This document shows positions 18,280 to 49,284 of a DNA stretch of 64,000 bases, in pieces. Positions within the stretch are counted from its first letter, which is position 1, and each line of letters starts with the position of its first letter. The translations under genes were made by a program, and so were the position numbers. Source of the stretch: Sphingopyxis sp. PAMC25046 (lineage in GTDB: Bacteria > Pseudomonadota > Alphaproteobacteria > Sphingomonadales > Sphingomonadaceae); NCBI RefSeq assembly GCF_004795895.1, contig NZ_CP039250.1, positions 1,054,001 through 1,118,000 on the forward strand. Reading direction: 5' to 3'. The notes beneath the pieces were generated by a model that worked only from the letters and a program-made list of their open reading frames with translations, had not been told where the DNA came from and searched no databases.

Positions 18280-18299
18280 TTCCTATATGGGTTGTTGCC

Positions 18300-26770: not shown

Positions 26771-27772
26771 TTAGCCGTCGACGATCTGCGGCGCGGTGCC
26801 TGCAAGCGCGGTTTCAAACGCCTCCACACGGTCGGTCGCGCGCATCAGCCCGCCATAATCGCCAGTCCATTGATCGGCGAAGCCCGCGACCTTGCCATAG
26901 CTGTTGTCGAGCAGCACGTGCGGGATGTCGAGCAACAGCGAGAGGATATGCGCGTGGAGCCGGTCGGTGACGACCAGCTCGCCGGTGGACAGCATCGCCA
27001 GCCCGCGTTGCAGTCGCCATTCGGCCAGCCGCTGTTGCCGCGCGGCGCGCTGCGCCATCGGATCGCGGTTGAAAAGGCGGCCGAGCTTCAGCGACAGGCG
27101 CAATCGGCGCTTTTGGGCGGGATCCTCGCCGAGCCAGTCGTCGGCGACTACGCCGGCGGGGAGCGTGTCGGCGCCGCCGGGTGCCCGCTCATGATCGGTG
27201 CGGAGCAGCGCGAAGACCGGCACGGTCGCGGGACTGCGCTGCTGGCGGCCGAGCATCAGCGCGGCATCGGGACAGAGCCGGATAGCGCAGTCGAAATGCC
27301 GCTCGGCAAAGGCGAACGAGCGAGCGTCGCGGACGAGCAGCGTAAACTGGCCGTGATCGCGGATCGCTTGGGCCATCTCGGCCGCGGCGGCGGGGTCGGC
27401 ATAGTGGATCGACTGCGGCATCTGCACGATGGGACGGCCGCGGTGCGTGCGAAGGAGGTGCAGGCGGAAGTCTTCATGCTTGGGCCACAACGTCCCCATG
27501 TTGCCGCCGCCGTGGATCAGAATCGGCCCGTCGCCGATCGCCGCCCCGCAGGCTTCGTCGTCGAAATCGGCGATCGCCGAATAATAGGCGGGCAGGCGGT
27601 TCCGCTTGCGCAGATAGGCCATCTCGCCGAGCCAGATCGCCGAATCGCCGACGTTCGAGTGATCGGGAAAGTCGACGAGCGCCAGCCGGCCCGCCGGCAG
27701 CACGCTATCGAGCACACGGGCAAAATGGTCGGCGAGTTCGCCGACGAGCAGGTCGGCGCTTTTCATGGTCAT
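26771..27772 (-). CDS. Polysaccharide pyruvyl transferase family protein
   Basis: A 333-residue member of the PS_pyruv_trans family, which adds ketal-linked pyruvate from phosphoenolpyruvate to sugars of exopolysaccharides. Signature regions are NVGDSAIWLGEMAYL (about residue 40), ILIHGGGNMGTLWPKHEDF (about 85-103), and VVTDRLHAHILSLLLDIPHV near the C-terminus. The ATG at 27772 overlaps the stop of the flippase gene as ATGA. Its 3' end faces the glycosylphosphotransferase gene at 12 bases. Predicts a pyruvylated, acidic polymer. Confidence 0.9.
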   Translation of the reverse strand: MTMKSADLLVGELADHFARVLDSVLPAGRLALVDFPDHSNVGDSAIWLGEMAYLRKRNRLPAYYSAIADFDDEACGAAIGDGPILIHGGGNMGTLWPKHEDFRLHLLRTHRGRPIVQMPQSIHYADPAAAAEMAQAIRDHGQFTLLVRDARSFAFAERHFDCAIRLCPDAALMLGRQQRSPATVPVFALLRTDHERAPGGADTLPAGVVADDWLGEDPAQKRRLRLSLKLGRLFNRDPMAQRAARQQRLAEWRLQRGLAMLSTGELVVTDRLHAHILSLLLDIPHVLLDNSYGKVAGFADQWTGDYGGLMRATDRVEAFETALAGTAPQIVDG

Positions 27773-34276: not shown

Positions 34277-35002
34277 TCAGCCAGCCCGGGCCCGTGATCC
34301 ATATAGCGCCCCCTCGCAGGCGGCGAGCAGTTCGGGCGGGGCGAGACGGTTGATATAGCCGTCCGATCCTTGATCGGAGAGCAGCTTTGCCGGGATGCCG
34401 CCGACCACGCCGCGCTCGGGCACGTCCTTTGTCACTACCGCATTGGCGCCGATCGCCGCCTCCGCGCCTACGGCGATGCCGCCGATGATCTTGGCGCCTG
34501 ACCCCAGAAAGCTGCGATCGCCGATCACCGGCGCGCCGCGCCGACCGCCGCGGTTCATATAACCGAGCACGACGCCGTGGGTGATGTTGACATTACTGCC
34601 GAGCACCGCGTCGCCGTGGAAATAGAAGCCGCCGAAGCGGTTGAGGAACAGGCCGGGCCCGATCTCCATATATTCGGGGATCGCAAAGCCATATTTGTAA
34701 CGCGCGCGCAGCAGCAGCCACTTGGCGAGCGGATAGAGACCAAAAGCCTTGGCGGGCTTGAGCTTGAGCCAGCCTGTCGTGCGCATCAGCACCGTGTATT
34801 TATACCCCGGGGTAAAGGCATAATGCCGCGCGAAGGCGCCGAAGTCGGTGCGGCCGGCATAGCGATAGAGGTCGGCGGCGAGCAGCGCCTTGAGCTTCGC
34901 GAAGCTCACCGGGCAGCCGCGCAGGTGCGGCTTGCCGGTATCTTCGGAAACGGGCTCCTCGAGCGCCGGAGCGGGGGCGAGCGATGCGCCGGCCATGTCC
35001 AT
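34277..35002 (-). CDS. Hexapeptide-repeat acetyltransferase (serine acetyltransferase-like)
   Basis: A 241-residue left-handed beta-helix acyltransferase of the CysE/EpsC group. The N-terminal part is extended (FAKLKALLAADLYRYAGRTD). The hexapeptide coils run from about residue 125 (GDAVLGSNVNITHGVVLGYM) to IGANAVVTKDVPERGVVGG. Such genes in polysaccharide loci usually O-acetylate a sugar. The ATG overlaps the OPX stop by one base. Its 3' end faces the barrel gene at 6 bases. The acceptor cannot be assigned. Confidence 0.88.
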   Translation of the reverse strand: MDMAGASLAPAPALEEPVSEDTGKPHLRGCPVSFAKLKALLAADLYRYAGRTDFGAFARHYAFTPGYKYTVLMRTTGWLKLKPAKAFGLYPLAKWLLLRARYKYGFAIPEYMEIGPGLFLNRFGGFYFHGDAVLGSNVNITHGVVLGYMNRGGRRGAPVIGDRSFLGSGAKIIGGIAVGAEAAIGANAVVTKDVPERGVVGGIPAKLLSDQGSDGYINRLAPPELLAACEGALYGSRARAG

Positions 35003-35565
35003 CAGAAATAACGCTCGCCGAAACGGATCGTGTCGCCCGGAAGCACGGGGAAATCGGCGGTCATCTCATATTCGCGCTCGCCGGCTTCGCCCGCGCGCTT
35101 CAGGAAGACGCGCTTCTCGTTGGCGCGATAGGTGAAACCGTCGGCCTTGGCGACCGCGCCGCGGATGGTGAGGCCCTGCGTATAGGGATATTCGCCTGGC
35201 TTGTTGACTTCACCGAGCACATAGACGGGCCGGAAACTCGCGACCTGGACCGAGACTTTCGGCTCGAGCAGATAGCCGTCGCCGAGCTTCGCTTCGATCG
35301 CCTTCGATAGCTGGTCGGTCTGGAGCCCGGCGGCCTTGATCTCGCCGATCAGCGGAAAGGCGATCGTGCCGGCGGGCGAGACTTCGAAGTCGCCGGTCAG
35401 CGTCTCTTCGCCATAGGTCGCGATCTTGACCTTGTCGCCGGGCGAGAGACTGAACGCCTCGGCCGGCGGCGCCGCCGCGCCACTGCCTGCGAGCGGCGCC
35501 TGCCCGGCGCACGCACCGAGCATCGCGAGCGTGCTCGCCAAGGCGATCTGCTTAAGCCATTTCAT
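35002..35565 (-). CDS. Short polysaccharide export (OPX) lipoprotein
   Basis: A 187-residue Wza/OPX-family lipoprotein. The signal sequence ends LGAC (Cys19). The PES domain is at about residues 38-105 (LSPGDKVKIATYGEETLTGD) and one SLBB-type domain follows (YVLGEVNKPGEYPY onward). It is half the length of classical Wza and has no C-terminal alpha-helical barrel segment, so it cannot span the outer membrane as Wza does. The ATG at 35565 has GGGAGTG upstream. The gene is coupled to the acetyltransferase downstream (1-base overlap) and the GT4 gene upstream (ATGA). Confidence 0.9.
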   Translation of the reverse strand: MKWLKQIALASTLAMLGACAGQAPLAGSGAAAPPAEAFSLSPGDKVKIATYGEETLTGDFEVSPAGTIAFPLIGEIKAAGLQTDQLSKAIEAKLGDGYLLEPKVSVQVASFRPVYVLGEVNKPGEYPYTQGLTIRGAVAKADGFTYRANEKRVFLKRAGEAGEREYEMTADFPVLPGDTIRFGERYF

Positions 35566-36743
35566 GAAATCACTCCCGGACTTGATGCTGCAATGTCTTT
35601 GAACTCGGCCCCTGCGCGGGGTCGGGCGAGCGTCGCCTCGATCCGCGCCCAATAATTCGCCGCGGCCTGCCCGACGCCATAGGCAAGCGAGCGCGCGCGC
35701 GCGCGCTTGCCGCATTCGCTGCGCTGCGGCTCGGCGAGAACGCGGTGCAAGGCGGCGGCGAAGGCGGGCACATCATCGGTCGGCACCAACGCGCCGGCGT
35801 CGACATCGATCCCGCCAGTAATCGTATCGCGCGGCCGGTCGGCCAAAATCTCGGATGGGCCGGAGGCGCAATTGGTCGCGACGACGGGCACACCGCACGC
35901 CATTGCCTCGACCAGTCCGTTCGGGAAACCTTCGGCGTTCGAAGGCATCGCATAGACCTGCGCGCGCGCGACCACCGCGAAGGGGTTGGCGACGAAGCCG
36001 GGCATGTCGACCCGGTCGGCAATGCCAAGCGAGGCGGCGAGCGCTTCGAGCGCGCCGCGCTCGGGCCCTTCGCCGAGGATGACGAGACGCTCCGCCGGCG
36101 CGGCCCGCGCATAGGCGCGCAGCAGCAGCGGAAAATTCTTGTTCGGCATGAGCCGCCCGGCCGAGACGATATAAGGATCGGCAGGCACGAAGGCGGGCGG
36201 TTCGGCCGCCAGTTCGGCGATGCGCCGATGGTCGACCGGATTGGCGATCGCCGACATGCGGCCCCGCGCGACGCCGAAATTGGCGGCGAGATCGTCGACC
36301 ACGCCTTCGGACACCGCGATGACATGCGCGGCGCGCGGATAGACCAAGCGGACCATCGCCTTGGCGGCGAAGGCGCTGCCCAGATGCGCGCTGGTGTTGA
36401 TCCGCTCGCTGATCAGCCAGGGTCGGCGGCGCCCCGCCATCGCCCAAGCGTTGGCGATATTGGCGCGGGTGAGGAAGCTGAGCGTCGCGTCGGGCGCGAG
36501 CCGTCGCGTCAGCGCACGCAACTGCGTCAGGCTCGGCAGCAATTTGTGCTGCGCGTCGAGCTGGTGAACTGCAACCCATTCGGGAACCTCATAGGCGCGC
36601 GGCTCGTCATCGAGCAGGGCGAGATGGATGTCGTAGCGCGCGCGCCAAGGCTCCGACCCGCCGAGCAAGGTCGCGAGCACGCGTTCGGCGCCGCCCCCCG
36701 CGAGCGAGTTGATCGCGAACAAGATCCGCTTTCGGTGCAGCAT
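35562..36743 (-). CDS. Glycosyltransferase family 4
   Basis: A 393-residue GT-B fold glycosyltransferase. The N-terminal SLAGGGAERVLATLL donor-side start, AIANPVDH near the domain linker, and the E-x7-E motif in SNAEGFPNGLVEAMACGVPV (about residue 280) define GT4. It retains the anomeric configuration and acts at the cytoplasmic face. The ATG at 36743 follows AGGA. First gene of the leftward unit GT4-OPX-acetyltransferase, divergent from the acyltransferase gene. Confidence 0.92.
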   Translation of the reverse strand: MLHRKRILFAINSLAGGGAERVLATLLGGSEPWRARYDIHLALLDDEPRAYEVPEWVAVHQLDAQHKLLPSLTQLRALTRRLAPDATLSFLTRANIANAWAMAGRRRPWLISERINTSAHLGSAFAAKAMVRLVYPRAAHVIAVSEGVVDDLAANFGVARGRMSAIANPVDHRRIAELAAEPPAFVPADPYIVSAGRLMPNKNFPLLLRAYARAAPAERLVILGEGPERGALEALAASLGIADRVDMPGFVANPFAVVARAQVYAMPSNAEGFPNGLVEAMACGVPVVATNCASGPSEILADRPRDTITGGIDVDAGALVPTDDVPAFAAALHRVLAEPQRSECGKRARARSLAYGVGQAAANYWARIEATLARPRAGAEFKDIAASSPGVIS

Positions 36744-36926
36744 GATTCCTCGTTGGAGTTGGCGCGGAATGCGCCTCGGAAGAACCCTTACCACGCCGAT
36801 TTGTTGCAGTGCACACAGGCGCGCCCGCTTCATCGCCTGCGGGGGGCATTTGGCCGATTCGAGCGGGTTTCGCGCCGGGATAGGTCTATTGCCGGTGATA
36901 CCGATGAACGTTTGCGGAGATATGTA

Positions 36927-38087
36927 ATGGACATTCGGCGCGTCGAGTGTCTGGACGGCTTGCGCGGCGTCGCGGCGCTCTGGGTGTTGTTCGGACACAT
37001 GATGATCCTCACCGGTTTCCGGCTGCCGCTGATGAGCAAGCCCGATCTTGGCGTCGATCTGTTCATCTTGCTCTCCGGCTTTCTGATGATGTTCCAGTAC
37101 CGGCTGCGCGCGGGCAGCGAGGACTGGACCGCGCCCGGCACTTGGGCCGCCTTTTGGACGCGGCGCTTCTTCCGGCTGGCGCCGCTATTCTATGTGACGC
37201 TTGCCGCCGCGCTGATCGCCGGGCCCGCGATCTATGAGGGCCGCGTCGCGATCGACAGCTTCCTCGGCCAGTCGCTGCAGCTGCCCGAACGCTATCTCGA
37301 CGGCAGTCTCATGAACATCGCGCTGCATCTGAGCTTCCTGTTCGGATTGCTTCCCGACTATGCCTTTCGCACCCCGCTGCCCGACTGGAGCCTCGGGCTC
37401 GAGATGCAATTCTATCTGCTCTTTCCTTTCCTCATACTGCTCGGACGGCGGTTTGGCTGGATAGCGTCGGCGCTCGTCGCGGCCGGTGGCGGAGTGACCA
37501 TCGCGCTGATCGCCGGCGCGGCGGGCCTCGACTATCCGATGCCATCCTTCCTGCCATTGAAGCTCCAGCTTTTCCTCGCCGGCATGCTGCTCGCCGCCGG
37601 TGCGGGCGAAAGCCCTGCGCGGCTGTGGATTCGCCTCGGCGCGGCAATGCTGCTCGCCGCGATCCCGATCGGCGGCGATCAGGATCTGCTCCACATCGCG
37701 GTCCGCGAGCTGCTCGTCTTTGGCTTCTTCGCGCTCGTGCATCTGCGTTCGCTCGGCATCATTGACTGGATTTCGCGGCTGTTCGGCAGCCGGCCCTTCT
37801 ATTGGCTGGGCGAGCTTTCCTACGGTACCTATCTAATCCACCTCCTGATCCTGCAGCCCGTCGCGGCGGCGGTGATCGGGCGGTTCGGCACCGGACTCGG
37901 CGCAGTCGAGCGTTTCATGCTGACCGGTGCGATCGTTGTGCCCGCGACCTATGCGCTTGCCTTTGTGACTTACAAGCTGGTCGAGCTGCCGGGGCAGCGG
38001 ATCGGGAAAGCGGTCATCAAACGAGCCGTCGGACGCGGTACGCCGCGCGCGCATCAGACGGTTCCCGAAAGGATTGCCGCGCCGTGA
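36927..38087 (+). CDS. Acyltransferase family 3 membrane protein (OafA/ExoZ-like)
   Basis: A 386-residue integral membrane acyltransferase with about 10 helices. The family start RVECLDGLRGVAALWVLFGH (catalytic-type His at residue 23) and the R-x10-H-like region are present. KPDLGVDLFILLSGFLMM and YGTYLIHLLIL near the end are also typical. It probably adds an acetyl or other acyl group to the exopolysaccharide or its lipid-linked unit. ATG at 36927 with GGAG upstream. The upstream gap (36744-36926) is a divergent promoter region that carries the half-site TGTTGCA at 36802. Confidence 0.92.
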   Translation: MDIRRVECLDGLRGVAALWVLFGHMMILTGFRLPLMSKPDLGVDLFILLSGFLMMFQYRLRAGSEDWTAPGTWAAFWTRRFFRLAPLFYVTLAAALIAGPAIYEGRVAIDSFLGQSLQLPERYLDGSLMNIALHLSFLFGLLPDYAFRTPLPDWSLGLEMQFYLLFPFLILLGRRFGWIASALVAAGGGVTIALIAGAAGLDYPMPSFLPLKLQLFLAGMLLAAGAGESPARLWIRLGAAMLLAAIPIGGDQDLLHIAVRELLVFGFFALVHLRSLGIIDWISRLFGSRPFYWLGELSYGTYLIHLLILQPVAAAVIGRFGTGLGAVERFMLTGAIVVPATYALAFVTYKLVELPGQRIGKAVIKRAVGRGTPRAHQTVPERIAAP

Positions 38088-38131
38088 TGGCCGATCCGCC
38101 ATGCTATTCCGATATCAATGGAGATTGTCCG

Positions 38132-38413
38132 ATGGACCGCCGAGCCTTGCTGACGTCGATTGCCGGTGCCGCCGCCACAAGCGCCTGCACCCGTCGCGAC
38201 GACGATAACACCGGAGCGGGCAGAGCCGGCCGCCCGACGCTGGCGATTGATTCCGAGGGGCCGGGGCGCTGGCGCATCCGCAGCTGGCAATGGCGCGCGA
38301 ACGCGTGGCGGCCACTGATTGCCCGGGCGCGGCGGACTGGCGGCAAGATCGAAATCGACGGCGCGATCGACGCGGCTGACCGCGCCGAAGTGATCGCCCA
38401 GTTTCGCGCCTAG
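38132..38413 (+). CDS. Small exported protein with Tat/lipoprotein-like leader
   Basis: A 93-residue protein. The leader MDRRALLTSIAGAAATSAC has a twin arginine, a short hydrophobic core and a lipobox-like Cys19. The mature part is about 74 residues, basic and Trp-rich (GRWRIRSWQWRANAWRPL). It then ends with IEIDGAIDAADRAEVIAQ. I recognise no family. It could be a complete small lipoprotein or the front end of a degraded Tat-exported enzyme. ATG at 38132 has GGAG upstream; the frame opens earlier at 38087, overlapping the acyltransferase stop. The end is 4 bases from the convergent GT4 gene. Confidence 0.6.
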   Translation: MDRRALLTSIAGAAATSACTRRDDDNTGAGRAGRPTLAIDSEGPGRWRIRSWQWRANAWRPLIARARRTGGKIEIDGAIDAADRAEVIAQFRA

Positions 38414-38417
38414 GGCC

Positions 38418-39611
38418 CTAACCTCTCGCCGGCCCCGGTGTGGTGGAGGGCCGCGGGACCGGCCGGCGCGGCGCAAGCGCGGCGCGATAGACTTCGAGCG
38501 TCTCTGCCGCCGCCCTGTCCCAGCTGAAACGGGCGCGGACAGCGTCGCGATCGACCTGGAAGTCGGCGCAATCGACGTTCAGCCGGGCGGTGAGTTCGCC
38601 GACGTCGCCGACCGGAAAATAGTTCCTTGGGTCGAGCCCGATGTCGAGGTTGGCGGGAATGTCGCTCAGCAACATCCGCGCGCCGCAGCTTGCCGCCTCT
38701 AGTGCCGCGATCGGCAGACCCTCGTGATAGGATGGCATCACGAACAGCGCGCAATGTTCGTATAGGCATTTGAGCGTCGCGCGCGACTGGACGCCCGCGA
38801 AGATCACGCGGTCGCTCGCGCGTTCGAGAAGCTCGCGGGCATATTCGCTTTCATGATCGGCCGAGCCGGCGATGACCAGCTTGGCGGTGCAGTCCGACCG
38901 CTCATAGGCGTCGATCAGGTCGTGCAGACCCTTTTCGGGAACAAGTCGTGCGACGGCGAGGAGGAAGTTGCCGTCGTCGATCCCCAGCCGCTCGAATATG
39001 AGCGCGGGATCGGCATCGCCGGGCAGGTCGGAGGTGCCGTTGGGGATATAAGAGACCGCCTGCGCGCGCTGCGGGAAACTCTGCTGCAATTGCGCGGCGA
39101 GCGAGGGGGAAACGGCGATGACCCGATCGGCGAATTTGAGCGCCAGCCACTCGCCGGCGCGCAGCGCGCCGCGCGCGAGCGGGCCCCATTTGGCGCGGTG
39201 ATAATCGGTGCCGTGGTGCGTCACGACGACCTTCAGGCCGAGCAGCCGCGCGACCGGCGCCAGCAATCCGGGGCCTATCGCATGGATATGGACCAGCCCG
39301 GCGCCACGCTTGCGTGCCGACAGGACGGCGAGGAAGGTCGACACGATCGCTTCGAAATGCTGCGAGCGCGGGCAGGGGATGCCGACGATCTCGACCCCGC
39401 GATGCTCGCTCACGGGCTCGGGCAGATAGGGCGCGCGGCCGAGCACGACCGAGCGGTGGTCGGGCCACAGCGCCTTTATCCGCGGCAGCAGTTCTTCGCA
39501 GTGACTTTCGATCCCGCCCATGACATGCGGAAAGCCGCGTAGGCCCGTCACGCAGATGACGGGAGACCCCGCGCGTTTGCCGGAAGACATATTCGTCCGT
39601 TGCAGCATCAT
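38418..39611 (-). CDS. Glycosyltransferase family 4
   Basis: A 397-residue GT4 enzyme. GLRGFPHVMGGIESHCEELL at the start is typical of the DUF1972/GT4 group in exopolysaccharide loci. VVTHHGTDYHRAKWG, VSYIPNGT and the E-x7-E segment in SYHEGLPIAALEAASCG follow. The donor is not determinable. It is last in the leftward unit ugd-epimerase-GT4. The start is one of two adjacent ATGs at about 39611. It lies 34 bases from the epimerase stop. Confidence 0.92.
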   Translation of the reverse strand: MMLQRTNMSSGKRAGSPVICVTGLRGFPHVMGGIESHCEELLPRIKALWPDHRSVVLGRAPYLPEPVSEHRGVEIVGIPCPRSQHFEAIVSTFLAVLSARKRGAGLVHIHAIGPGLLAPVARLLGLKVVVTHHGTDYHRAKWGPLARGALRAGEWLALKFADRVIAVSPSLAAQLQQSFPQRAQAVSYIPNGTSDLPGDADPALIFERLGIDDGNFLLAVARLVPEKGLHDLIDAYERSDCTAKLVIAGSADHESEYARELLERASDRVIFAGVQSRATLKCLYEHCALFVMPSYHEGLPIAALEAASCGARMLLSDIPANLDIGLDPRNYFPVGDVGELTARLNVDCADFQVDRDAVRARFSWDRAAAETLEVYRAALAPRRPVPRPSTTPGPARG

Positions 39612-39645
39612 AAAACTCCAAAAGCGCCCGGCCGGATTTCCCGGC

Positions 39646-40659
39646 TCAGGCCACCGCTGCCATCGGCCCTCTTCCACCATTTTCTATTTCGCTGAGATAC
39701 CAGTCGACGAACCGCTCGATCCCGCGGGAAAGCGGTACCTTGGGGCTATATCCGGTGAGCGCGTTGATCGCCGAGATATCGGCATAGGTCGCGGTCACGT
39801 CGCCCGGTTGCATCGGCCGCATCAGCTTGACCGCCGGCCGGCCGAGCGCGCGCTCGAGCATCGCGATCATGTCCATCAGTCCGACCGGATTGCAGTCGCC
39901 GATGTTGAGGAGCCGGTGCTGGCCGCTCGCCGGCGGCCTGTCGAGCACGCCGATGACGCCATCGACGATGTCGTCGATATAGGTGAAATCGCGCGCCATC
40001 TGGCCCTCGCCGAATACCTCGATCGGTTGGCCGAGCAATATCTTCTGCGCAAAGCCGTAATAGGCCATATCGGGCCGGCCCCACGGGCCATAGACGGTGA
40101 AGAAGCGCAGCCCGCTGAGCGGTAGTTTGTAGAGCGTGGCATAACTCTGGCTCATCAATTCGCAGCTGCGCTTGGTCGCAGCATAAAGCGAGACGGGCGC
40201 GGTGCAGGGTTCGTCCTCGCGGAACCCTGCGCCGCCGATCGGACGGTCGCCATAGACCGAGCTCGACGAGGCATAGACGAGATGCTCGATAGTGCCGGCG
40301 TGGCGCGCCGCTTCGAGCACCGCGAGATGCCCTTTGAGGTTGCTGTGCTCATAGGCGAAGGGGTTTTCGAGGCTGTAGCGCACGCCAGCCTGCGCGGCGA
40401 GGTGGACGATGCGGCGAATGCCGTTCGCCTCGACCAGCTCGCTGACCAGCCCGGGGCTGGCGATGTCGCCATCGATAAGCCGGAAATTGAAATTGCCGGC
40501 CAGGCGCGCCGTGCGCGCTTTCTTCAGCGCGACGTCATAATAGTCGGTGAAGCTGTCCAGGCCGATCACCCGCTCGCCGCGCTCGAGCAGCCGCTCGGAC
40601 ACGGCATGGCCGATAAAACCGGCGGCGCCGGTGACGAGGACGGGGCCGTCGTCCTTCAC
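39646..40659 (-). CDS. NAD-dependent epimerase, UDP-glucuronate 4-epimerase type
   Basis: A 337-residue extended SDR. The NAD motif GAAGFIG is at residues 11-17, the catalytic serine lies in SSSVYG (about 132-136), and the Tyr/Lys pair is Y159-x3-K163 (YAATK). The inserted VLDSF-like TDYYDVALKKAR region and GVRYSLENPFAYEHSN are characteristic of UDP-glucuronate 4-epimerases (CapI/GlaE). It would convert UDP-glucuronate, made by the adjacent ugd, to UDP-galacturonate. It overlaps ugd by ATGA. Predicts galacturonic acid or a derivative in the polymer. Confidence 0.88.
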   Translation of the reverse strand: MKDDGPVLVTGAAGFIGHAVSERLLERGERVIGLDSFTDYYDVALKKARTARLAGNFNFRLIDGDIASPGLVSELVEANGIRRIVHLAAQAGVRYSLENPFAYEHSNLKGHLAVLEAARHAGTIEHLVYASSSSVYGDRPIGGAGFREDEPCTAPVSLYAATKRSCELMSQSYATLYKLPLSGLRFFTVYGPWGRPDMAYYGFAQKILLGQPIEVFGEGQMARDFTYIDDIVDGVIGVLDRPPASGQHRLLNIGDCNPVGLMDMIAMLERALGRPAVKLMRPMQPGDVTATYADISAINALTGYSPKVPLSRGIERFVDWYLSEIENGGRGPMAAVA

Positions 40660-42008
40660 GCCGCGCGCCTCTCGCCCGAGAGTTCTTCATCGTCGTCGAG
40701 CTTGTTCGGGCGGCCGATACCAACATAGCGCAGACCCGCCTCTTCGGCCTGAGCGGGCCGATAAATGTTGCGCAGGTCGACGAGCAGCGCATCGGCCATC
40801 GCGGTCTTGAGGCGCGCCAGGTCGAGCGCTCGGAACGCGTCCCATTCGGTGACGATCACCGTCGCCGCCGCGCCGGCTGCTGCGGCGTAAGCGGAGGACG
40901 CATAATCCACGTCGCTGAGCACCGCTCTGGCCGCGTCCATGCCCTCGGGATCATAGGCGCGCACCTTGGCGCCGGCGTCCTGCAGCGCCTGGATGATCGC
41001 GATCGAGGGTGCGTCGCGCATGTCGTCGGTATTGGGTTTAAAGGTCAGGCCGAGCACAGCGACCGTACGGCCGCGGACCGGCCCGTCGATCGCCGCAAGG
41101 ATCTTGCGGCCCATCGCGCGCTTGCGCTGCTCGTTGACGGCAACGGTCGCCTCGATCAGCCGCAGCGGGGCGTCATGGTCCTGCGCCGTCTTCATCAGCG
41201 CGAGCGTGTCCTTGGGAAAGCAGGAGCCGCCGTAGCCCGGTCCCGCGTTCAGGAATTTGCCGCCGATCCGGTTGTCGAGCCCGATGCCGCGCGCGACCTC
41301 CTGCACATCGGCGCCGACCTGTTCGCACAGGTCCGCCATCTCGTTGATATAGGTGATCTTCATCGCGAGGAAGGCGTTCGCCGCATATTTGATCAGTTCG
41401 CTCGTGCGCCGCCGGGTGAAGACGATCGGCGCCTTGTTCAGCGACAGCGGGCGATAGACCTCTTCCATCGGCGCGCGGGCGCGTTCGTCCTCGATGCCGA
41501 TGACGACGCGGTCGGGGCGCTTGAAATCCTCGATCGCCGCGCCTTCGCGCAGGAATTCGGGGTTGGAGGCGACGGCGAACTCGGCCGCGGGATTGCATTC
41601 GCGGATGATCCGCTCGACCTCGTCGCCGGTGCCGACGGGAACGGTCGATTTGGTGACGATCACGGTAAAGCCGCTCAAGGCGCCCGCGATCTCGCGCGCC
41701 GCGCCATGGACATAGGAGAGATCGGCGTGGCCGTCGCCGCGCCGGCTCGGCGTGCCGACCGCGATGAACACAACGTCCGCGGCGCCAACGGCTTCGGAAA
41801 GCTCGGTTGTGAAGTCCAGATTGCCCGCGGCGACATTGCGCGCGACCAGATTGTCGAGCCCGGGCTCATAGATGGGAATGCCGCCGGCGCGAAGCCGGGC
41901 GATCTTGTTCGCGTCCTTGTCGACGCAGGTCACATGATGGCCGAAATCGGCAAAACACGCGCCCGAAACGAGCCCGACATAGCCGGACCCGATCATTACG
42001 ATACGCAT
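40656..42008 (-). CDS. UDP-glucose 6-dehydrogenase
   Basis: A 450-residue UDP-glucose/GDP-mannose dehydrogenase. The Rossmann start MRIVMIGSGYVGLVSGACFA, the central ALRxx-type region, and the catalytic cysteine in GYGGSCFPKD (about residue 260) are intact. A second Rossmann domain follows (VAVLGLTFKPNTDDMRDAPS). It oxidises UDP-glucose twice to UDP-glucuronate. Substrate supply from galU at 44754 and use by the 4-epimerase make UDP-glucose the likely substrate. First gene of its leftward unit, with a 311-base divergent promoter region upstream. Confidence 0.95.
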   Translation of the reverse strand: MRIVMIGSGYVGLVSGACFADFGHHVTCVDKDANKIARLRAGGIPIYEPGLDNLVARNVAAGNLDFTTELSEAVGAADVVFIAVGTPSRRGDGHADLSYVHGAAREIAGALSGFTVIVTKSTVPVGTGDEVERIIRECNPAAEFAVASNPEFLREGAAIEDFKRPDRVVIGIEDERARAPMEEVYRPLSLNKAPIVFTRRRTSELIKYAANAFLAMKITYINEMADLCEQVGADVQEVARGIGLDNRIGGKFLNAGPGYGGSCFPKDTLALMKTAQDHDAPLRLIEATVAVNEQRKRAMGRKILAAIDGPVRGRTVAVLGLTFKPNTDDMRDAPSIAIIQALQDAGAKVRAYDPEGMDAARAVLSDVDYASSAYAAAAGAAATVIVTEWDAFRALDLARLKTAMADALLVDLRNIYRPAQAEEAGLRYVGIGRPNKLDDDEELSGERRAA

Positions 42009-42241
42009 TACGCGTTGCTCCCTATTTATATGAAGGCGATTATGCTGCGCTTGCGAACAATCATCCCGGATAGCCCTCGCCCGTCAACTTGGCAGCTTTG
42101 AAAAGAGGCAATTCGGAGGCGAAGCGAATGCGCCCGCAATTCCGATTCAAAATGGGGCAGAATTAAAAAAGCGAGAGAAATTTAAGGAGATAACTCGCGA
42201 CTTTGCGCAAACGAAGATCGAGCGTTTTGGATGCGATGCGA

Positions 42242-42253
42242 CGAAACGTTTCG
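42242..42253. promoter_or_regulatory. LacI/GalR-like operator palindrome CGAAACGTTTCG
   Basis: A perfect 12-base palindrome with the central CG typical of LacI/GalR-family operators, in the 311-base gap (42009-42319) between ugd and the aldehyde-dehydrogenase-like gene. Possible rightward promoter elements lie just downstream: TTGCCA at 42262-42267 and TACAAG at 42284-42289, 16 bases apart. The gap is more AT-rich than the genes, and the 9-mer GGATGCGAT is repeated at about 42228 and 42292. Nothing else in the gap is clear. No LacI-family gene lies in the window. Confidence 0.4.
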
Positions 42254-42319
42254 ACTTGAACTTGCCACGCGTCGGCGCGGGACTACAAGCTGGATGCGAT
42301 AAACTGTGGGAAGGGCAGG

Positions 42320-43588
42320 ATGCTGGAAGCGCAACGCGCGGCATTTTTCGCCGACCTGCCGGTGTCGCTGGGGGTTCGCCGCGACCGGCTGGGGCGAGCG
42401 ATGCTGATGATCGAAGAAAATGCCGATGCGCTGTGCGCAGCGCTCGCTGCTGATCAGACGAATCAGGATGTCGAGTCGGCGAGGCGCTCCGAAGTGGTCC
42501 CGGCACTGGCGGTGTTGCGCGCGGCGCGAAACAGCGTCGGGCAATGGATGCGCCCCGAAACCGAGGGCCGGTTGCTTGCGCGGCTTTGGGGCGGCGGTGA
42601 CTATGTCGAATATCTGCCGGTCGGCGTGATCGGAATATCGGCGCCTGCCTCGCTGGCATTGCTCCAAGTGGCGACTGTCCTCGCCGGGGCATTTGCCGCG
42701 GGCAATCGGATAATGCTGAAATTCGATACCGCCTCGCCGCGGCTGGGCGAGCTGATCGACCGGCTGGCGCCCGGTTTTTTCGATCCGCTCGAATTGGCCG
42801 TCGCTTCGGACGCGGCCTTTGCGGGGCGCGCATTCGATCTGCTCGTAACCAGCGAAGAACAGGGCGATGGCGTGACGATCGCGCGCTCGGGCAAGTCGCC
42901 GGTCATCTTCGGGCGCTCCGCCGATTTTGCGCGGGCTGCGGACAAGGTGATCGCGGACAAGCGCGTCCGGGGCGGACGGCTGCCGCTGGCGCCCGACTAT
43001 CTGCTCGTGCCCGACGAGCAGGAAGAGGCGATCGCCGCCTGGCTGTGGCGCGCGGCGATGCAGCCGGCCGCGAACGAAGCGGCGCCGACCGCTGCCGAAC
43101 AGGCGCGATGGATGCGGCTGTTGGACGACGCGCGCGCGCGCGGAGGCGAGGTGATGACCGCGCGCCCGCGGGGGACGGAAATTCCGCTCCACATCGTCCG
43201 CCATGCCAGCGAGGACATGCTGGTGATGCAGGAGGATGTCGAGGGTCCGATCCTGCCGTTGTGCAATTATGCCCGGATCGAGGACGCGATCGCCACGATC
43301 CACCGCCGCACGCCGCCGCATGCCATATATTATTTCGGGCGCGACGGTATCGAGCGCCGGCATGTGCTGGGGCGCACCCTGTCGTCGGCGATAGCGATCG
43401 ACGGGCGGGCGCTGTCTCCGGTTACGGCGGGCGCGGACATGACACTCAACATCGGCTCGGGGGAAGCGGGCTTTCGCCGGTTCAGCCGAACCCGGCGCGT
43501 CTGCCGCCCACCTTTCTTCGGTCTCGCGACCCGGTTCGCGATCAAGGGCGGCGACGACCTTTCCGGGCCGGCACCCGCGCTGCACTGA
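42320..43588 (+). CDS. Aldehyde dehydrogenase-like pseudoenzyme of the EPS locus
   Basis: A 422-residue protein with the aldehyde dehydrogenase fold, closest by eye to coniferyl-aldehyde dehydrogenases. All three catalytic positions are changed. The oxyanion Asn of SPWN is Ser111, the general base Glu of LELGGKSP is Ala188 (IARSGKSP), and the nucleophile Cys of NAGQTC is Pro222 (RGGRLPLAPDY). The flanking scaffold (YLPVGVIGI, AAGNRIMLK, GKSPVIFG, APDYLLV) is well kept, and the frame is unbroken. This suggests a maintained non-enzymatic role, not a decaying gene. It heads the rightward block with the beta-helix gene, galU, the Wzc kinase and Wzy. Confidence 0.85.
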   Translation: MLEAQRAAFFADLPVSLGVRRDRLGRAMLMIEENADALCAALAADQTNQDVESARRSEVVPALAVLRAARNSVGQWMRPETEGRLLARLWGGGDYVEYLPVGVIGISAPASLALLQVATVLAGAFAAGNRIMLKFDTASPRLGELIDRLAPGFFDPLELAVASDAAFAGRAFDLLVTSEEQGDGVTIARSGKSPVIFGRSADFARAADKVIADKRVRGGRLPLAPDYLLVPDEQEEAIAAWLWRAAMQPAANEAAPTAAEQARWMRLLDDARARGGEVMTARPRGTEIPLHIVRHASEDMLVMQEDVEGPILPLCNYARIEDAIATIHRRTPPHAIYYFGRDGIERRHVLGRTLSSAIAIDGRALSPVTAGADMTLNIGSGEAGFRRFSRTRRVCRPPFFGLATRFAIKGGDDLSGPAPALH

Positions 43589-43656
43589 TCCCGGGCACAC
43601 CACGCCGCGCCGCATCGCGCTCGCTCTGACGCGCGCCGACACCCTAACGCGGCCTC

Positions 43657-44595
43657 ATGGCAGACACGTCCTCCCGTCGCGCCGCGAGCGCGGTTCAGAT
43701 CGCAGCGGACGGCGAGCCGGTCTATGTCGTGCGCTCGGGCGCCGCCTATCGCGCCGTGCGCGCCCGCGAGGTCGGCAACGGCCTGTTCGTGATTCGCGAG
43801 CCGGTCCGCGACGTGCGGATTTCGGACGTCAGGGTGGCGAGCGGTTATCGCGTCATTGAAAATACCGCTGCGCCCGGCTTGGCGGCCGCAGGCTGCATCG
43901 GGCTGCACGTGCGCGGGGCAAGAGCGAGCGATCTCGAACGCAGCTTCGCGCGGATCCGCTATGACAGCCGCGACGGCGTGATCGAGGATGTGAGCGCGAG
44001 CGGCAGGCTCACCACCGGTTCTACCGACCTTCCGGTCGGCATCGGATTCGCCGACGCTGCGCATGATTTCCGGATCGAGCGCTGTTCGATGCGCGGATTT
44101 CAGTGGAAACGCGGCGACTCGCAATATTGGAACGGCGACGGCTTCTCGACCGAGCGCGGCAATGCACGTTTTCTATTCCGCAACTGCGCCGCTTGGGACA
44201 ATAGCGATGGCGGTTTCGACCTGAAGTCGACCGAGACTTTGCTCGACGATTGCATCAGCGGCCGCAACGCGCGCAACTTCCGGTTGTGGTCGAGCATTCG
44301 CGCGACGCGGCTCGTCAGCGTCGATCCGATCAAGATTGGCGGAATCGGCGACACGAACCATTTTTCGATCATGGCGGCTAAAGGCGGGAACGAGCCCCTG
44401 GTCATCTATATCGAGCATCTGTCGGTGAAGAGCGATCGTGGCTGGCCGATCTTCGACGTTCATAACGGACCCGCCAGGATTATCATCGGCTCGCATGATA
44501 TCCAGGTGCCGCGCGGAACGCAGCTGGTCCGCTCGCGAGGCGGGGGTTCGGTGCCGGGCGGGGTGTCCTTCAAGGGCGAACCGCCGAAGCTTTGA
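43657..44595 (+). CDS. Right-handed parallel beta-helix protein
   Basis: A 312-residue protein whose central region (about 60-270) has short repeating strands with conserved Asn/Asp turns. Examples are GVIEDVSASG, FLFRNCAAWDNSDGGFDL and TLLDDCISGRNARNFRLW, as in pectate-lyase-like beta-helix proteins. No signal peptide is visible at the N-terminus (MADTSSRRAASAVQ), which is odd for a polysaccharide-cleaving enzyme. It may be exported by another route, cut polymer inside the cell, or be non-enzymatic. Candidate acidic residues lie in YWNGDGF and WDNSDGG. It lies 68 bases after the aldehyde-dehydrogenase-like gene. Confidence 0.75.
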   Translation: MADTSSRRAASAVQIAADGEPVYVVRSGAAYRAVRAREVGNGLFVIREPVRDVRISDVRVASGYRVIENTAAPGLAAAGCIGLHVRGARASDLERSFARIRYDSRDGVIEDVSASGRLTTGSTDLPVGIGFADAAHDFRIERCSMRGFQWKRGDSQYWNGDGFSTERGNARFLFRNCAAWDNSDGGFDLKSTETLLDDCISGRNARNFRLWSSIRATRLVSVDPIKIGGIGDTNHFSIMAAKGGNEPLVIYIEHLSVKSDRGWPIFDVHNGPARIIIGSHDIQVPRGTQLVRSRGGGSVPGGVSFKGEPPKL

Positions 44596-44753
44596 AATAG
44601 CCCCGACGCACTTTGGACACGCTTCGACGCCGGGCTCTTGCTGCAATGCAGCGTAAGGGCGCAAACCGCGCCCGTCAGCACGTGGCGATCGTGTCTGGCG
44701 AGCCGAATACTGGTTTTTGGGGGGGAACCCAGTGACCAGAAAAGGGTGGAAAA

Positions 44754-45611
44754 ATGCGAAAGATACGCAAGGCCGTGTTCCCCATTGGCGGCCTTGGAAC
44801 CCGGTTTCTTCCGGCGACCAAATCCATGCCAAAGGAAATGCTGCCGGTCGTCGACCGGCCGCTCATTCAATATGCCGTCGACGAGGCGCGCGAGGCGGGG
44901 ATCGAACAATTCATCTTCGTCACCAGCCGCGGCAAGAGCCTGATCGAGGATCATTTCGATCACGCCTTCGAGCTTGAGGAAGCGATGGCGCGGCGCGGCA
45001 AATCGCTTTCCGCGCTCGACGGCACCCGCCCCTCGCCGGGCGATATCACCATCGTGCGGCAGCAAGAGCCGCTCGGGCTCGGCCACGCCGTCTGGTGCGC
45101 GCGTCGCCTTGTCGGTGACGAGCCCTTCGCCGTGTTGCTGCCCGACGATTTGATGGTCGGCGAGCCCGGCTGTCTCAAGCAGATGGTCGAAGCCTATAAC
45201 GACCTTGGTGGCAATCTGATCTGCACCGAGGAAGTGGCGGCAGACCAGACGCATAAATATGGCATCGTCACCCCCGGAGCGCAGGCGGGGCCGATCACCG
45301 AAGTGAAGGGGCTGGTCGAAAAGCCGGCGCCCGATGTCGCACTGTCGCGGCTCGCGATCATCGGCCGCTATATCCTCCAGCCCGAGGTGATGGACGTGCT
45401 CGGCAGTCAGGAGGAAGGCGCGGGCGGCGAGATTCAGCTCACCGACGCGCTGGCGCGAATGATCGGCCAGCAACCCTTCCACGGCGTCACCTTTGCGGGG
45501 ACGCGCTATGACTGCGGCGACAAGAGCGGTTTCGTGACTGCGACGCTCGCGCTCGCGCTCGGCCGTCCCGATATCGCGCCCGCGGTCCGCGCTTTCCTGG
45601 CTGCCGCGTGA
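44754..45611 (+). CDS. galU: UTP-glucose-1-phosphate uridylyltransferase
   Basis: A 285-residue GalU, making UDP-glucose from UTP and glucose-1-phosphate. The nucleotidyltransferase signature GGLGTRFLPATKSMPKEML (residues 12-30) is complete. DDLMVG and THKYGIV follow. The product feeds ugd and the glycosyltransferases of the same locus. The ATG at 44754 is preceded by GGGTGG and lies in a 158-base gap that may hold a promoter. The stop is one base from the Wzc start. Confidence 0.97.
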   Translation: MRKIRKAVFPIGGLGTRFLPATKSMPKEMLPVVDRPLIQYAVDEAREAGIEQFIFVTSRGKSLIEDHFDHAFELEEAMARRGKSLSALDGTRPSPGDITIVRQQEPLGLGHAVWCARRLVGDEPFAVLLPDDLMVGEPGCLKQMVEAYNDLGGNLICTEEVAADQTHKYGIVTPGAQAGPITEVKGLVEKPAPDVALSRLAIIGRYILQPEVMDVLGSQEEGAGGEIQLTDALARMIGQQPFHGVTFAGTRYDCGDKSGFVTATLALALGRPDIAPAVRAFLAAA

Positions 45612-45612
45612 C

Positions 45613-47790
45613 ATGGATGCACTTTCACGGCGTACGTCGCTTCGTCAGGAAGCGGATCCGCAGGTCGATCGCGGCGCGCTGATCGACCTGCGCCATATCG
45701 GCGGGATTTTGCGCCGGCGATGGATGGTGCTGTGTGCGGCGATGGTCGCGGCGATCATCGTCGCGACCGCCGCCTATCTCGTCGCCGAGCCGCGCTATCT
45801 CGCCACCGCGCAGGTCGCGCTCGAACGCACGGCGGAGCGGGTGATCGACGTCGATGCGGTGACCCCGACCGCCGATCCCGATTCGGCGGCGGTCGACACC
45901 GAAGTGCAGGCGCTGCGCTCGCCCGAGCTGATCGGGCGGGTGGTCGACCGGCTGCGGCTCGCGCGCGATCCCGCGTTCAACGAGGCCGCGGGGCAGGGCG
46001 GTCCCGCAGCGCAGCCCGACCTGATCGGGCGGCAGCGCGCGATCGGCGCGCTGCTGGGCGGCCTGACGGTGAAGCGCGACGGGCTCTCCTATGCGATCAG
46101 CGTGTCTTACGAAGGGAATACGCCGGCGCAGGCGGCCCAGATCGCCAATGCGCTGGTCGACGACTATGTTTCGGGACAGGCGGGTTCGAAGGCCGAGGCG
46201 ACGCAGCGCGCGCAAGGCTTTCTCGAGAAGCGGCTTGAGGAGCTGCGCACGCAGGTGCTCGGCGCCGAGCGAGCGGTCGCCGACTATCGCGCCGCGAACA
46301 ATCTTTTCGCCGTTTCCGAAGCCAGCACGGTGACGCAGCAGGAATTGTCGGGTCTTTCGACGCAACTCGCGCAGGCCAAGGCGGAAAATGCCGCGGCGCA
46401 GGCGCGACTTTCGGCAGCACGCGCACAGGTGCGCGGTGGACGGAGCGGTGAGGAACTCGGCGACTCGCTCGATTCTCCGGTGGTCAGCCAGCTCCGGGCC
46501 CAGCGCGCCGAGGCCGCGCGCGAGGTGGCGGCGCTCGAAAAACGCTATGGTCCGCGTCATCCTGCGCTGGTTCAGGCGCAGAACCAGCTCCGCACCGCCG
46601 ACCAGCATATCGCCGCCGAGGTAAAGCGCATCGTCGCCAACGCGTCGATCCAGGCGAGCATCGCCAATCAACGCGCGGCTTCGCTCGCGGGCTCGGTCGC
46701 GCAGACTCAAGGCAAGCTCGCGAGCGACAATGAAGCATCGGTGCGGCTGGCCGAGCTGGAGCGCAACGCCGAATCGTCGCGGACTCTCTATCAGGCCTTC
46801 CTCGACCGCTATCGCCAGACGGTCGCGCAATCGGGGCTCGAGCGCAGCGATTCCTATATCGTCAGCCGTGCGCGCGTTCCCGGTGCGCCCAGTTCGCCTA
46901 ACATGCTGATCTATGCCGCAATGGCGGTGGTCGGCGGGCTCGGTATCGGGGTTCTGCTCGTGGTGCTGCTGCAATTGCTCGAGCGCGGGCTCGAGACGAG
47001 CGACGCGATCGAGGAAGCCTTGGGGTTGGCGACGCTCGCCTCGATCCCCGACGCGCGCACCTTGCCTGGCTATCGCAAGTCGGGGCTGCCGGCGCCGCCC
47101 GCGGAGCTGCTGATCAAGCGGCCGCAATCGACCTATGCGGAGGCGTTCCGGGCCTTGCGCACCTCGATCCAGTTCGCCGAGGCGGCGAAGCCGGTCCGTG
47201 TCGTCGCGATTACCTCGGCGGTGCCGGGCGAGGGCAAGACGACGACCGCGATGGGTCTTGCCCGCGCGATGGCGGCGACGGGCGGCAAGGTGCTGCTGAT
47301 CGACGCCGATGCGCGCCGGCGTGCATCGAGCCGGCAGTTCGCCGAGGGCGTAACGCTCGGCCTCGACGAAGTGCTGGCAGGCGAGGCGACCCTCGATCAG
47401 GCGATTGTCAAGGACAGCCTGTCCGACGCCTGCTTGCTGCCGCAGCGGCTCGATTCGAAGGGTATCGGCCTGACCGAGAGCCCGCGGCTCGCCGAGCTGA
47501 TCGAACAGGTGCGCGACCGCTACGACCTCGTGATTCTCGACACGCCGCCGGTCCTGCCGGTCGACGAGGCGCGCGTGATCGCCAGCATGGCGGATGGCGT
47601 CGTCTTCCTCGTACGCTGGCGCAAGACGCCGTCGAAGGCGGCGTCGGTGGCACTGCGCCGGCTCTACGACGTCCATGCCGAAATGCTGGGCGCGGTGCTG
47701 ACGCTGGTCGATGTGCGCGAGCAGGAACGCGCCGGCTATGAGGATGGCGGCACCTTCCTCAAGGCGTACCGCCACTATTATGCCGACTAG
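45613..47790 (+). CDS. Wzc-type polysaccharide co-polymerase and tyrosine autokinase
   Basis: A 725-residue one-chain PCP-2a/BY-kinase. The N-terminal Wzz domain starts after a first membrane helix (about 38-57, WMVLCAAMVAAIIVATAAYL). A long periplasmic coiled coil follows, with the second helix at about 435-457. The cytoplasmic kinase has Walker A PGEGKTTT (about 538), Walker A' VLLIDADARRR (about 560) and Walker B LVILDTPP (about 638). The tyrosine cluster at the C-terminus (AYRHYYAD) is the likely autophosphorylation site. It controls chain length and export with Wzy and OPX. No phosphatase partner (Wzb) is in the window. Confidence 0.96.
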   Translation: MDALSRRTSLRQEADPQVDRGALIDLRHIGGILRRRWMVLCAAMVAAIIVATAAYLVAEPRYLATAQVALERTAERVIDVDAVTPTADPDSAAVDTEVQALRSPELIGRVVDRLRLARDPAFNEAAGQGGPAAQPDLIGRQRAIGALLGGLTVKRDGLSYAISVSYEGNTPAQAAQIANALVDDYVSGQAGSKAEATQRAQGFLEKRLEELRTQVLGAERAVADYRAANNLFAVSEASTVTQQELSGLSTQLAQAKAENAAAQARLSAARAQVRGGRSGEELGDSLDSPVVSQLRAQRAEAAREVAALEKRYGPRHPALVQAQNQLRTADQHIAAEVKRIVANASIQASIANQRAASLAGSVAQTQGKLASDNEASVRLAELERNAESSRTLYQAFLDRYRQTVAQSGLERSDSYIVSRARVPGAPSSPNMLIYAAMAVVGGLGIGVLLVVLLQLLERGLETSDAIEEALGLATLASIPDARTLPGYRKSGLPAPPAELLIKRPQSTYAEAFRALRTSIQFAEAAKPVRVVAITSAVPGEGKTTTAMGLARAMAATGGKVLLIDADARRRASSRQFAEGVTLGLDEVLAGEATLDQAIVKDSLSDACLLPQRLDSKGIGLTESPRLAELIEQVRDRYDLVILDTPPVLPVDEARVIASMADGVVFLVRWRKTPSKAASVALRRLYDVHAEMLGAVLTLVDVREQERAGYEDGGTFLKAYRHYYAD

Positions 47791-47822
47791 GTCGTGACGT
47801 CATTTATGAGTTCACGACCTAG
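47787..47822. repeat. Perfect 11-bp inverted repeat with CTAG ends, between wzc and wzy
   Basis: CTAGGTCGTGA (47787-47797) pairs with TCACGACCTAG (47812-47822) across 14 bases (CGTCATTTATGAGT). The TAG stop of the Wzc gene lies inside the left arm. The structure can be read as a 28-base element with inverted GTCGTGA ends flanked by CTAG duplications, as left by IS5-type elements, or as a plain hairpin. As RNA it could reduce read-through to the polymerase gene. Confidence 0.65.
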
Positions 47823-47834
47823 CCGGGCGGCGCC

Positions 47835-49208
47835 GTGACCGCGCAGCCGCTGCCCTATGGCCCGGCCTTCGGGCCCGGCATATTGGTGCCCGTCACGCTG
47901 CTGCTGCTCGTCCCGCTGGTCGTCGCGGCGCGGCGGGCGGGCGGCATGGCCGGGGCTTTCGTGGTCGTTGCGCTGTGGCTGCGCACCACCGCGGGCGCCT
48001 ATCATCTCTATATGTTCCAGCCGCTTGCGGGCGGACTGTCGGGTAACGCGCTGCTTTCGGTCGCGGTGACGGGCTTCGGGCTGCTTTTCGTCGTGCGGTC
48101 CGCCAATCTCGCGCTCAAATGGCTCGTGCCCGTCTATGTGCTCATCCTGCTCGCGCTGGTCAGCGCCGTCCTCAACGGCGATCCGGTGGGCGGCGTCAAT
48201 GTCGCGGTCAAATATGCCTATATGATCGTGATACTGCTCGCGGCTTTCCAGGCGCTGCGCCGCGATCCCGAGGCGCGCTTTCTGACCTGGGCGATGGTGT
48301 CCTTCCTGCCCTTGCTCGTCTTTCAGGCGCTGTCGCTGGCGCTTAACATGCCCAAGGGGGCCGAGGATGGCGACGGGCTCGTCTGGATCGGCGGCTATAA
48401 TCACGAGGCGGCCTTTTCGGTCGCGCTGCTGACGGGGTTCCTCGTCGGCGGCCTCGCGCGCTCGGCGCCGCGCGCGGTGCGGATCGCCTTTCTGTCCGTG
48501 ACGCTCATTGCCATTCTGCTCGCTGGTTATCGCACCACGATCCTCGCGCTCGCGCCGCTCGCGCTGGCGATCTTCCTCGGCGGGGTGACGATGAGCGTAC
48601 GGCGCGACCAGCGCGGGGCGATGGCGGTGACGGCGACCGTCGCGGGGGCGCTGCTCTTTGCGATCGCGGCGCTGCTCTATCGCGAGAGTTTCGCCGACCT
48701 CGCCGCGTTCCTCGCGGACCCGGCGGCGCTGATCAAACCGCCACGCGAGTTCGATCTGCTCGAACGGCAGGTGATGTCGGGTCGCCCGCTGATCTGGAGC
48801 AGCTATATCTATGCCTGGGCCGACGGCACGCCGCTTCAGCATTTGTTCGGCCTCGGACCCGAAAGCTGGGAGGGCGTGTTCAAAGTCTATCCGCACAACA
48901 CGCTGGTGGCGACGCTCTATGAACTCGGCTGGTTCGGCGTCGCGGCGATGATTGCCTTGTGGACGGCGATGTTCGCGGCGGCGGCGTCGGCGCGCGGCGA
49001 CCGCTTCCTGCTGATCGCCGCCCATTTCGCTTTCTTCCTGCTCAATATGGCGACGATGCCCTTCTGGCAGGTCGAGGGGCTGGCGTTTTATGGCCTGCTC
49101 TGCGGTTACACCGTCCATGCGGCGCGTGCGGCGACGCGGCGGGGGACAGTCTCTCCGGACCGGTTTGCTTACCGATTGCCAGAAGGCCGCGGGATTCGGG
49201 TGCGATGA
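47835..49208 (+). CDS. Wzy-type polymerase / O-antigen ligase family membrane protein
   Basis: A 457-residue protein with about 12 membrane helices and a large periplasmic loop (about residues 285-345) containing RPLIWSSYIYAWADG. It then has the ligase/polymerase signature KVYPHNTLVATLYELGWFGV. Belongs to the O-antigen ligase/Wzy_C-like family. In this locus it most likely polymerises repeat units in the periplasm with the Wzc kinase. GTG start at 47835, 12 bases after a hairpin. Its stop codon directly abuts the 3' end of the convergent tRNA-Thr gene. Confidence 0.9.
   Translation: MTAQPLPYGPAFGPGILVPVTLLLLVPLVVAARRAGGMAGAFVVVALWLRTTAGAYHLYMFQPLAGGLSGNALLSVAVTGFGLLFVVRSANLALKWLVPVYVLILLALVSAVLNGDPVGGVNVAVKYAYMIVILLAAFQALRRDPEARFLTWAMVSFLPLLVFQALSLALNMPKGAEDGDGLVWIGGYNHEAAFSVALLTGFLVGGLARSAPRAVRIAFLSVTLIAILLAGYRTTILALAPLALAIFLGGVTMSVRRDQRGAMAVTATVAGALLFAIAALLYRESFADLAAFLADPAALIKPPREFDLLERQVMSGRPLIWSSYIYAWADGTPLQHLFGLGPESWEGVFKVYPHNTLVATLYELGWFGVAAMIALWTAMFAAAASARGDRFLLIAAHFAFFLLNMATMPFWQVEGLAFYGLLCGYTVHAARAATRRGTVSPDRFAYRLPEGRGIRVR

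Positions 49209-49284
<76 letters not shown>

Follow-up and report, generated by a model that had tools for sequence, protein, structure and literature searches.

Why would an exopolysaccharide locus keep a protein that resembles an aldehyde dehydrogenase (ALDH) and has none of the three catalytic residues? This question is raised by a gene in a 64,000-nucleotide stretch of DNA from Sphingopyxis sp. PAMC25046 (contig NZ_CP039250.1, positions 1,054,001 to 1,118,000), which we call the window. The gene, here named pALDH, lies at window positions 42320..43588. It belongs to a family that has lost catalytic Asn and Cys throughout, holds a fixed place in a Wzx/Wzy-type polysaccharide locus and evolves under purifying selection. 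On balance, we lean towards regarding pALDH as a non-catalytic cytoplasmic scaffold or regulator of this locus that would dock through a candidate WLWR helix.

Catalytic and cofactor positions

The sole Pfam match in pALDH is Aldedh (63.2 bits, with a gathering cut-off of 23). This one model is matched across the 422 amino acids and there are no tandem ALDH-like domains. The best solved relative by sequence is the steroid aldehyde dehydrogenase 9nxl (E 5.5e-41, residues 1-394). The gene and the two parts of it that matter most here are as follows.

42320..43588, plus strand: pALDH, ALDH-fold pseudoenzyme of 422 amino acids, with catalytic Asn, Glu and Cys replaced by Ser111, Ala188 and Pro222
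42860..42889, plus strand: codons 181-190, where the RHILHAAADNL segment is missing and Glu is lost (A188); predicted local distance difference test (pLDDT) below 50 at residues 180-189
43040..43060, plus strand: codons 241-247, WLWRAAM, a conserved helix motif of the family and candidate docking surface

Our alignment holds 120 listed relatives of pALDH (the best 120 of 911 matches), namely 85 members of its own family and 35 active relatives. All 35 active relatives have Asn, Glu and Cys in the same three columns, which excludes catalytic residues in another register. In these columns pALDH has Ser111, Ala188 and Pro222, exactly as the initial annotation of the window had read them, and no catalytic Cys or Glu is placed elsewhere. 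Asn and Cys occur at their columns in none of the 85 listed family members (one has a gap in the Asn column). Glu is kept in four (P0063, P0064, P0074 and P0081) and missing from the other 81.

In ALDHs, the FTGAT motif and the RHILHAAADNL helix hold the cofactor. The RHILHAAADNL of the active relatives is absent in most family members, including the window protein, and a few deep members have unrelated letters at its position. FTGAT, which precedes it, is degraded in the family, and KTSE, EIFGP and PFGGIG are degraded or lost. The motifs surrounding the catalytic positions had initially been described as well preserved. This is true of QRAAF..LPV, RRDRL, APDYLLVP, YYFGRD..ERR and GEAGFR.FS, which persist, and does not extend to the motifs just named.

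At position 137, Glu is found in 35/35 active relatives versus 2/85 listed family members. At position 308, all 35 active relatives have Phe, which in the family is outside the eight commonest residues, and these make up 75/85. Of the 85, 56 have Lys or Arg at position 134 and 73 have Glu or Asp at position 306. Among these cofactor contacts, the window protein has Thr137 for Glu, Glu308 for Phe and Asp306 for Glu, and retains Lys134. It therefore has neither the catalytic Cys, Glu and Asn of an active coniferyl-aldehyde dehydrogenase nor the NAD(P)-binding segment and contacts of an active ALDH. Several database entries name proteins of this family coniferyl-aldehyde dehydrogenase; such catalysis is unlikely.

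We compared alignment entropy between 77 of the 85 family members (fragments, the 533-amino-acid P0082 and P0059 were dropped) and the 35 active relatives. Entropy is generally raised in the family, because it comprises more sequences, and more diverse ones, than the active set. Family entropy exceeds active-set entropy more than fourfold at residues 46-60, 106-120, 166-195, 211-225, 361-375 and 406-420, and about equal at residues 1-30, 196-210, 226-240 and 316-330. This pattern and the motif losses indicate that much of the scaffold is retained and that the active and cofactor sites are not. In the predicted model, codons 181-190 are probably disordered.

The listed family members (P0001-P0085, fragments included) are 49-100% identical to pALDH over the aligned part and score at least 309 bits. 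The best-scoring active relative among the matches listed reaches 284 bits and is at most 43% identical. Named family members among these matches are from Sphingopyxis and Sphingomonas. We built a tree of 69 sequences (54 of the 85 family members, 14 listed active relatives and the paralogue from the window's own genome), from which near-duplicates and fragments had been removed by hand. A branch with 100/100 support sets the 54 members of the family apart from all 15 active sequences. This split and the Asn and Cys losses common to the 85 listed members go beyond chance. The deepest forks within the family are weak (83/33 and 88/44), and P0066, P0078, P0059 and P0074 have long branches of unsure placement. 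Cys and Asn may have been lost first and Glu later. Weighing on this order are the weak deepest forks, the long branch of P0074 and the occurrence of P0081 among members with other letters; the Glu of P0081 was possibly regained. P0082, from outside the window, has an extra PF03981 match and could be a fusion or a gene-calling error.

The polysaccharide locus, distribution and selection

The locus around pALDH is of the Wzx/Wzy pathway, and we infer that its product is probably an acidic, substituted exopolysaccharide. Its principal features other than pALDH are these.

27769-29250: Wzx (from matches)
35002-35715: Wza-like export protein (from matches)
39646..40659, minus strand: NAD-dependent epimerase/dehydratase, perhaps a UDP-glucuronate 4-epimerase (substrate presumed)
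40656..42008, minus strand: UDP-glucose 6-dehydrogenase (UGD), divergent neighbour of pALDH
42009..42319: intergenic region between the divergent UGD and pALDH genes
43657..44595, plus strand: right-handed beta-helix protein of carbohydrate-active type
44754..45611, plus strand: galU, UTP-glucose-1-phosphate uridylyltransferase (TIGR01099, 321.3 bits, just under the curated cut-off of 326.8)
45613..47790, plus strand: Wzc-type polysaccharide co-polymerase with a tyrosine autokinase domain
47835..49208, plus strand: Wzy-like polymerase (Wzy_C, 27.4 bits, under the Pfam cut-off of 31.7)

Further matches in the locus are to glycosyltransferases (GT4, GT25 and GT2), a pyruvyl transferase and acyltransferases. 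The kinase that the initial annotation placed next to pALDH is Wzc, which is in fact separated from pALDH by the beta-helix gene and galU.

Among 80 Sphingopyxis genomes, pALDH was found in 19 (E <= 1e-85) and the Wzc of this locus in 21 (E <= 1e-150), and all 19 are included in the 21. The active coniferyl-type paralogue occurs in 78/80 and so does not explain the distribution of pALDH. In a family-wide sample, pALDH is present in at least 1/397 genomes (E <= 1e-85) and a beta-helix match in at least 13/397 (E <= 1e-40); in an order-wide sample, Wzc is present in at least 7/396 (E <= 1e-180). The genus, family and order counts are lower bounds, because few candidates were scored per genome (13 for Wzc and up to 22 for pALDH in the genus searches, the best 2 to 5 in the wider samples) and the wider samples hold few genomes per genus. 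Given the figure of 1/397, the distribution of pALDH is narrow and patchy.

Where pALDH occurs, its position in the locus is fixed across two genera. UGD is divergent from it in all 34 fetched pALDH loci (22 distinct genomes by matching coordinates, besides that of the window), with starts 309-323 bp apart, and galU follows in 34/34. The beta-helix gene is directly next and co-oriented except in one locus, L015. There, pALDH lies between UGD and galU with no adjacent beta-helix gene, and the best beta-helix match is 33% identical and on the other strand. UGD, galU and wzc surround pALDH in 12/12 sphingomonad loci (L005-L016), and the other 14 loci fetched with these represent more distant ALDH relatives, none of which showed galU or wzc as a neighbour. 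Within the 19-19.5 kb taken of loci L080-L083, whose Wzc is 48-51% identical, nothing matches an ALDH at E <= 1e-4, and no active ancestor was found at the same place in them. L082 and L083 have relatives of the beta-helix protein (37-38% identical).

The reading frame of pALDH is open in 19/19 Sphingopyxis matches, with zero internal stops, which bears out its initial description as intact. The start codon and a purine-rich stretch 5′ of it are found again in most of 12 relatives. We calculated the ratio of nonsynonymous to synonymous substitution rates (dN/dS) by the Nei-Gojobori method for 136 pairs of 17 loci, including the window. Codons with stops were skipped (GT4 in 3 loci, wzy in 4) and partial matches were dropped (sat in L011 and L014, UGD in L072). 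The median is 0.30 for pALDH (5-95%: 0.20-0.46) and 0.086-0.191 for the neighbours sat, GT4, epimerase, UGD, beta-helix, galU, wzc and wzy; wzx gave 0.15 from one pair only. In the same 10 genomes (45 pairs), dN/dS is 0.258 for pALDH versus 0.048 for the active paralogue. pALDH is therefore under moderate purifying selection, five times weaker than that on the paralogue. The open frames and a dN/dS well below 1 rule out that the window gene is a plain pseudogene. Its conservation with the exopolysaccharide locus and the purifying selection agree with the initial proposal of a retained, dead ALDH scaffold with a probable non-enzymatic role.

Some additional properties of the locus were observed. 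A comparison of the window with L005 gives a synonymous rate dS of 0.02 for galU and wzc and 0.09 for pALDH. The values for UGD, epimerase, GT4, sat and the beta-helix gene are 0.25-0.30. This mosaic at 34277-47790 suggests recombination in the locus. An open reading frame (ORF) at 47787-49118 on the minus strand overlies wzy on the opposite strand and is interrupted by stops in relatives. Another ORF, at 35745-38087 on the plus strand, overlaps in its first half a GT4 gene (35562-36998) on the opposite strand, so the acyltransferase gene of this ORF probably starts later. The polysaccharide locus is flanked by a tmRNA gene (18257-18613) and a tRNA-Thr gene (49209-49284), which are possible insertion sites for a patchy island.

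The WLWRAAM helix and possible roles

The motif WLWRAAM is exact in 74/85 listed family members. The 35 active relatives vary over this stretch (entropy 1.13, versus 0.22 in the family). Arg244 is present in 85/85 listed members and Arg274 in 83/85 (2 gaps). Five of 3000 shuffles reach the observed stretch, although the shuffle treats alike neighbouring sites as independent. In the predicted model, residues 241-246 belong to a helix, 232-246, that is predicted with confidence (block means of 97 and 91), and pLDDT is below 50 at residues 367-374 as well as at 180-189. A conserved family motif in a dead enzyme that is maintained suggests a binding protein, not an enzyme.

We propose that a class-3-like ALDH protein, catalytically dead, was captured by a sphingomonad Wzx/Wzy exopolysaccharide locus, where a cytoplasmic protein encoded by the locus would dock on the WLWR helix (241-247, with Arg244 and Arg274). 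The candidate partners are UGD, GalU and the kinase domain of Wzc, since the linkage of their genes to pALDH holds as far as the fetched stretch extends, even in L015. UGD is slightly preferred, since it is the constant divergent neighbour and since one genome lacks both it and pALDH. Binding could tune precursor supply or assembly without being essential for either. In its full form, the proposal is that a metabolic-enzyme fold lost catalysis and probably cofactor binding and was recruited as a dedicated Wzx/Wzy component with a W-L-W-R docking helix; we advance this only tentatively.

Several observations weigh against such a docking protein. In genome G405, whose Wzc is 96% identical, about 486 bp separate UGD from the beta-helix gene, and BLAST finds in them a remnant of pALDH (the upstream region, the gene's first part, a short middle piece and the tail); within the 19 kb fetched, every other gene tested is retained. 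G438, a 77% complete metagenome-assembled genome (locus L070), has neither UGD nor pALDH between the epimerase and beta-helix genes. pALDH is therefore not needed for the locus to persist and is dispensable in this sense. Among the nine genes for which many pairs could be compared, it has the highest dN/dS. Gained constraint was found at only 14 sites versus 28 expected if site entropies in the two groups were independent, so the gain is restricted to one window of the protein. The active 9nxl bears a W-R pair near the same helix, beside an alignment gap, and WLWR is therefore not proven to be special to the dead members. The model of pALDH deviates from 9nxl by a root-mean-square deviation (rmsd) of 19-20 Å, with a template modelling (TM) score of 0.42, and does not reproduce the ALDH domain arrangement; 9nxl and the class 3 ALDHs (1ad3, ALDH3A1) are the best in the fold comparison, at a global rmsd of about 19-23 Å. 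Finally, the partner and the effect are ones that we infer.

The main rival explanation is that pALDH formerly had a role in the locus and is a slowly decaying relic, now under relaxed constraint and lost lineage by lineage. The fivefold higher dN/dS than that of the active paralogue and the top rank among the nine genes are in keeping with this, as are the remnant in G405, the absence together with UGD in G438 and the C-terminal tail, which is variable and predicted with low confidence. However, dN/dS is well below 1, the frames are open in all 19 genus matches, most of 12 relatives share the start context, WLWRAAM is conserved family-wide and the locus position is fixed in two genera. We therefore consider a relic unlikely. 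Ordinary decay in orthologues, a possibility raised at the outset, does occur in G405.

Mixed dimers of the active coniferyl-type paralogue, whose gene lies elsewhere in the genome, with pALDH as a regulatory subunit are quite unlikely. This paralogue is nearly universal in the genus (78/80) and pALDH retains several scaffold motifs, but many genomes have the paralogue without pALDH, which tracks the polysaccharide locus instead. The initial annotation considered the beta-helix protein as a partner, and pALDH could be its dedicated chaperone or anchor, for instance; the two genes lie side by side in the same orientation in all fetched loci of pALDH bar L015. That exception, the reverse situation in G405 and G438, which both keep the beta-helix gene without pALDH, and the relatives near the Wzc genes of L082 and L083, where the fetched stretch lacks any ALDH match, make such a partnership improbable. 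UGD, GalU and Wzc are likelier partners. Sensing of NAD(H) or another ligand, by binding cofactor or aldehyde without catalysis, had also been suggested. APDYLLVP and other parts of the scaffold are retained, and positions 134 (Lys or Arg) and 306 (acidic) are often kept. However, RHILHAAADNL is missing in most members, the other cofactor-site motifs vary, Glu137 and the Phe of EIFGP (308) are rare or outside the common residues, as counted above, and these regions lose much constraint; a sensor is thus highly improbable.

Comparison with known systems

The nearest active relatives listed are sphingomonad ALDHs of the coniferyl-aldehyde dehydrogenase type (for example P0089, and L002 from the window's own genome), which are about 36-43% identical to pALDH and have scaffold motifs in common with it. 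Unlike pALDH, they keep Asn, Glu and Cys (35/35 listed) and the cofactor segment. The paralogue L002 has one fifth of the dN/dS of pALDH and is not confined to genomes with the locus. The steroid aldehyde dehydrogenase Sad (9nxl) and the class 3 ALDHs (1ad3, ALDH3A1), the best solved relatives by sequence and fold, were deposited as dehydrogenases.

ALDH16A1 is an animal protein with two ALDH-like domains. The human protein is an ALDH pseudoenzyme without the whole catalytic triad, for which protein interactions are reported or proposed (PMC10650815). pALDH resembles it in the loss of the triad. Unlike ALDH16A1, pALDH is bacterial, single-domain and fixed in a polysaccharide locus.

A parallel within exopolysaccharide pathways is EcpK, a BY pseudokinase that is important for exopolysaccharide synthesis in Myxococcus xanthus and is a proposed scaffold (PMC12004946). 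The likeness is that of a pseudoenzyme as a proposed scaffold. EcpK has a kinase-like fold, whereas in the pALDH locus a kinase domain is part of Wzc itself, and two genomes have lost pALDH or have it only in broken form. The promonan cluster of Sphingomonas sp. LM7 is a sphingomonad Wzx/Wzy exopolysaccharide pathway that resembles the pALDH locus by its description; the word "aldehyde" does not occur in the main text of that paper (PMC11340318).

Among the open-access journal papers that our searches listed, none has a title or abstract opening that describes a catalytically dead ALDH in a polysaccharide locus of bacteria. In the literature that was found, human ALDH16A1 is the only ALDH pseudoenzyme we met (PMC10650815). 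The pALDH family is a handy system for studying the change from enzyme to binding protein, because Asn and Cys are lost throughout, Glu is kept in a few members, an active paralogue is present alongside, the place in the locus is fixed and there are two natural losses. As an ALDH-fold pseudoenzyme, it would represent a kind already known from ALDH16A1, in a setting, the bacterial polysaccharide locus, that appears to be new.
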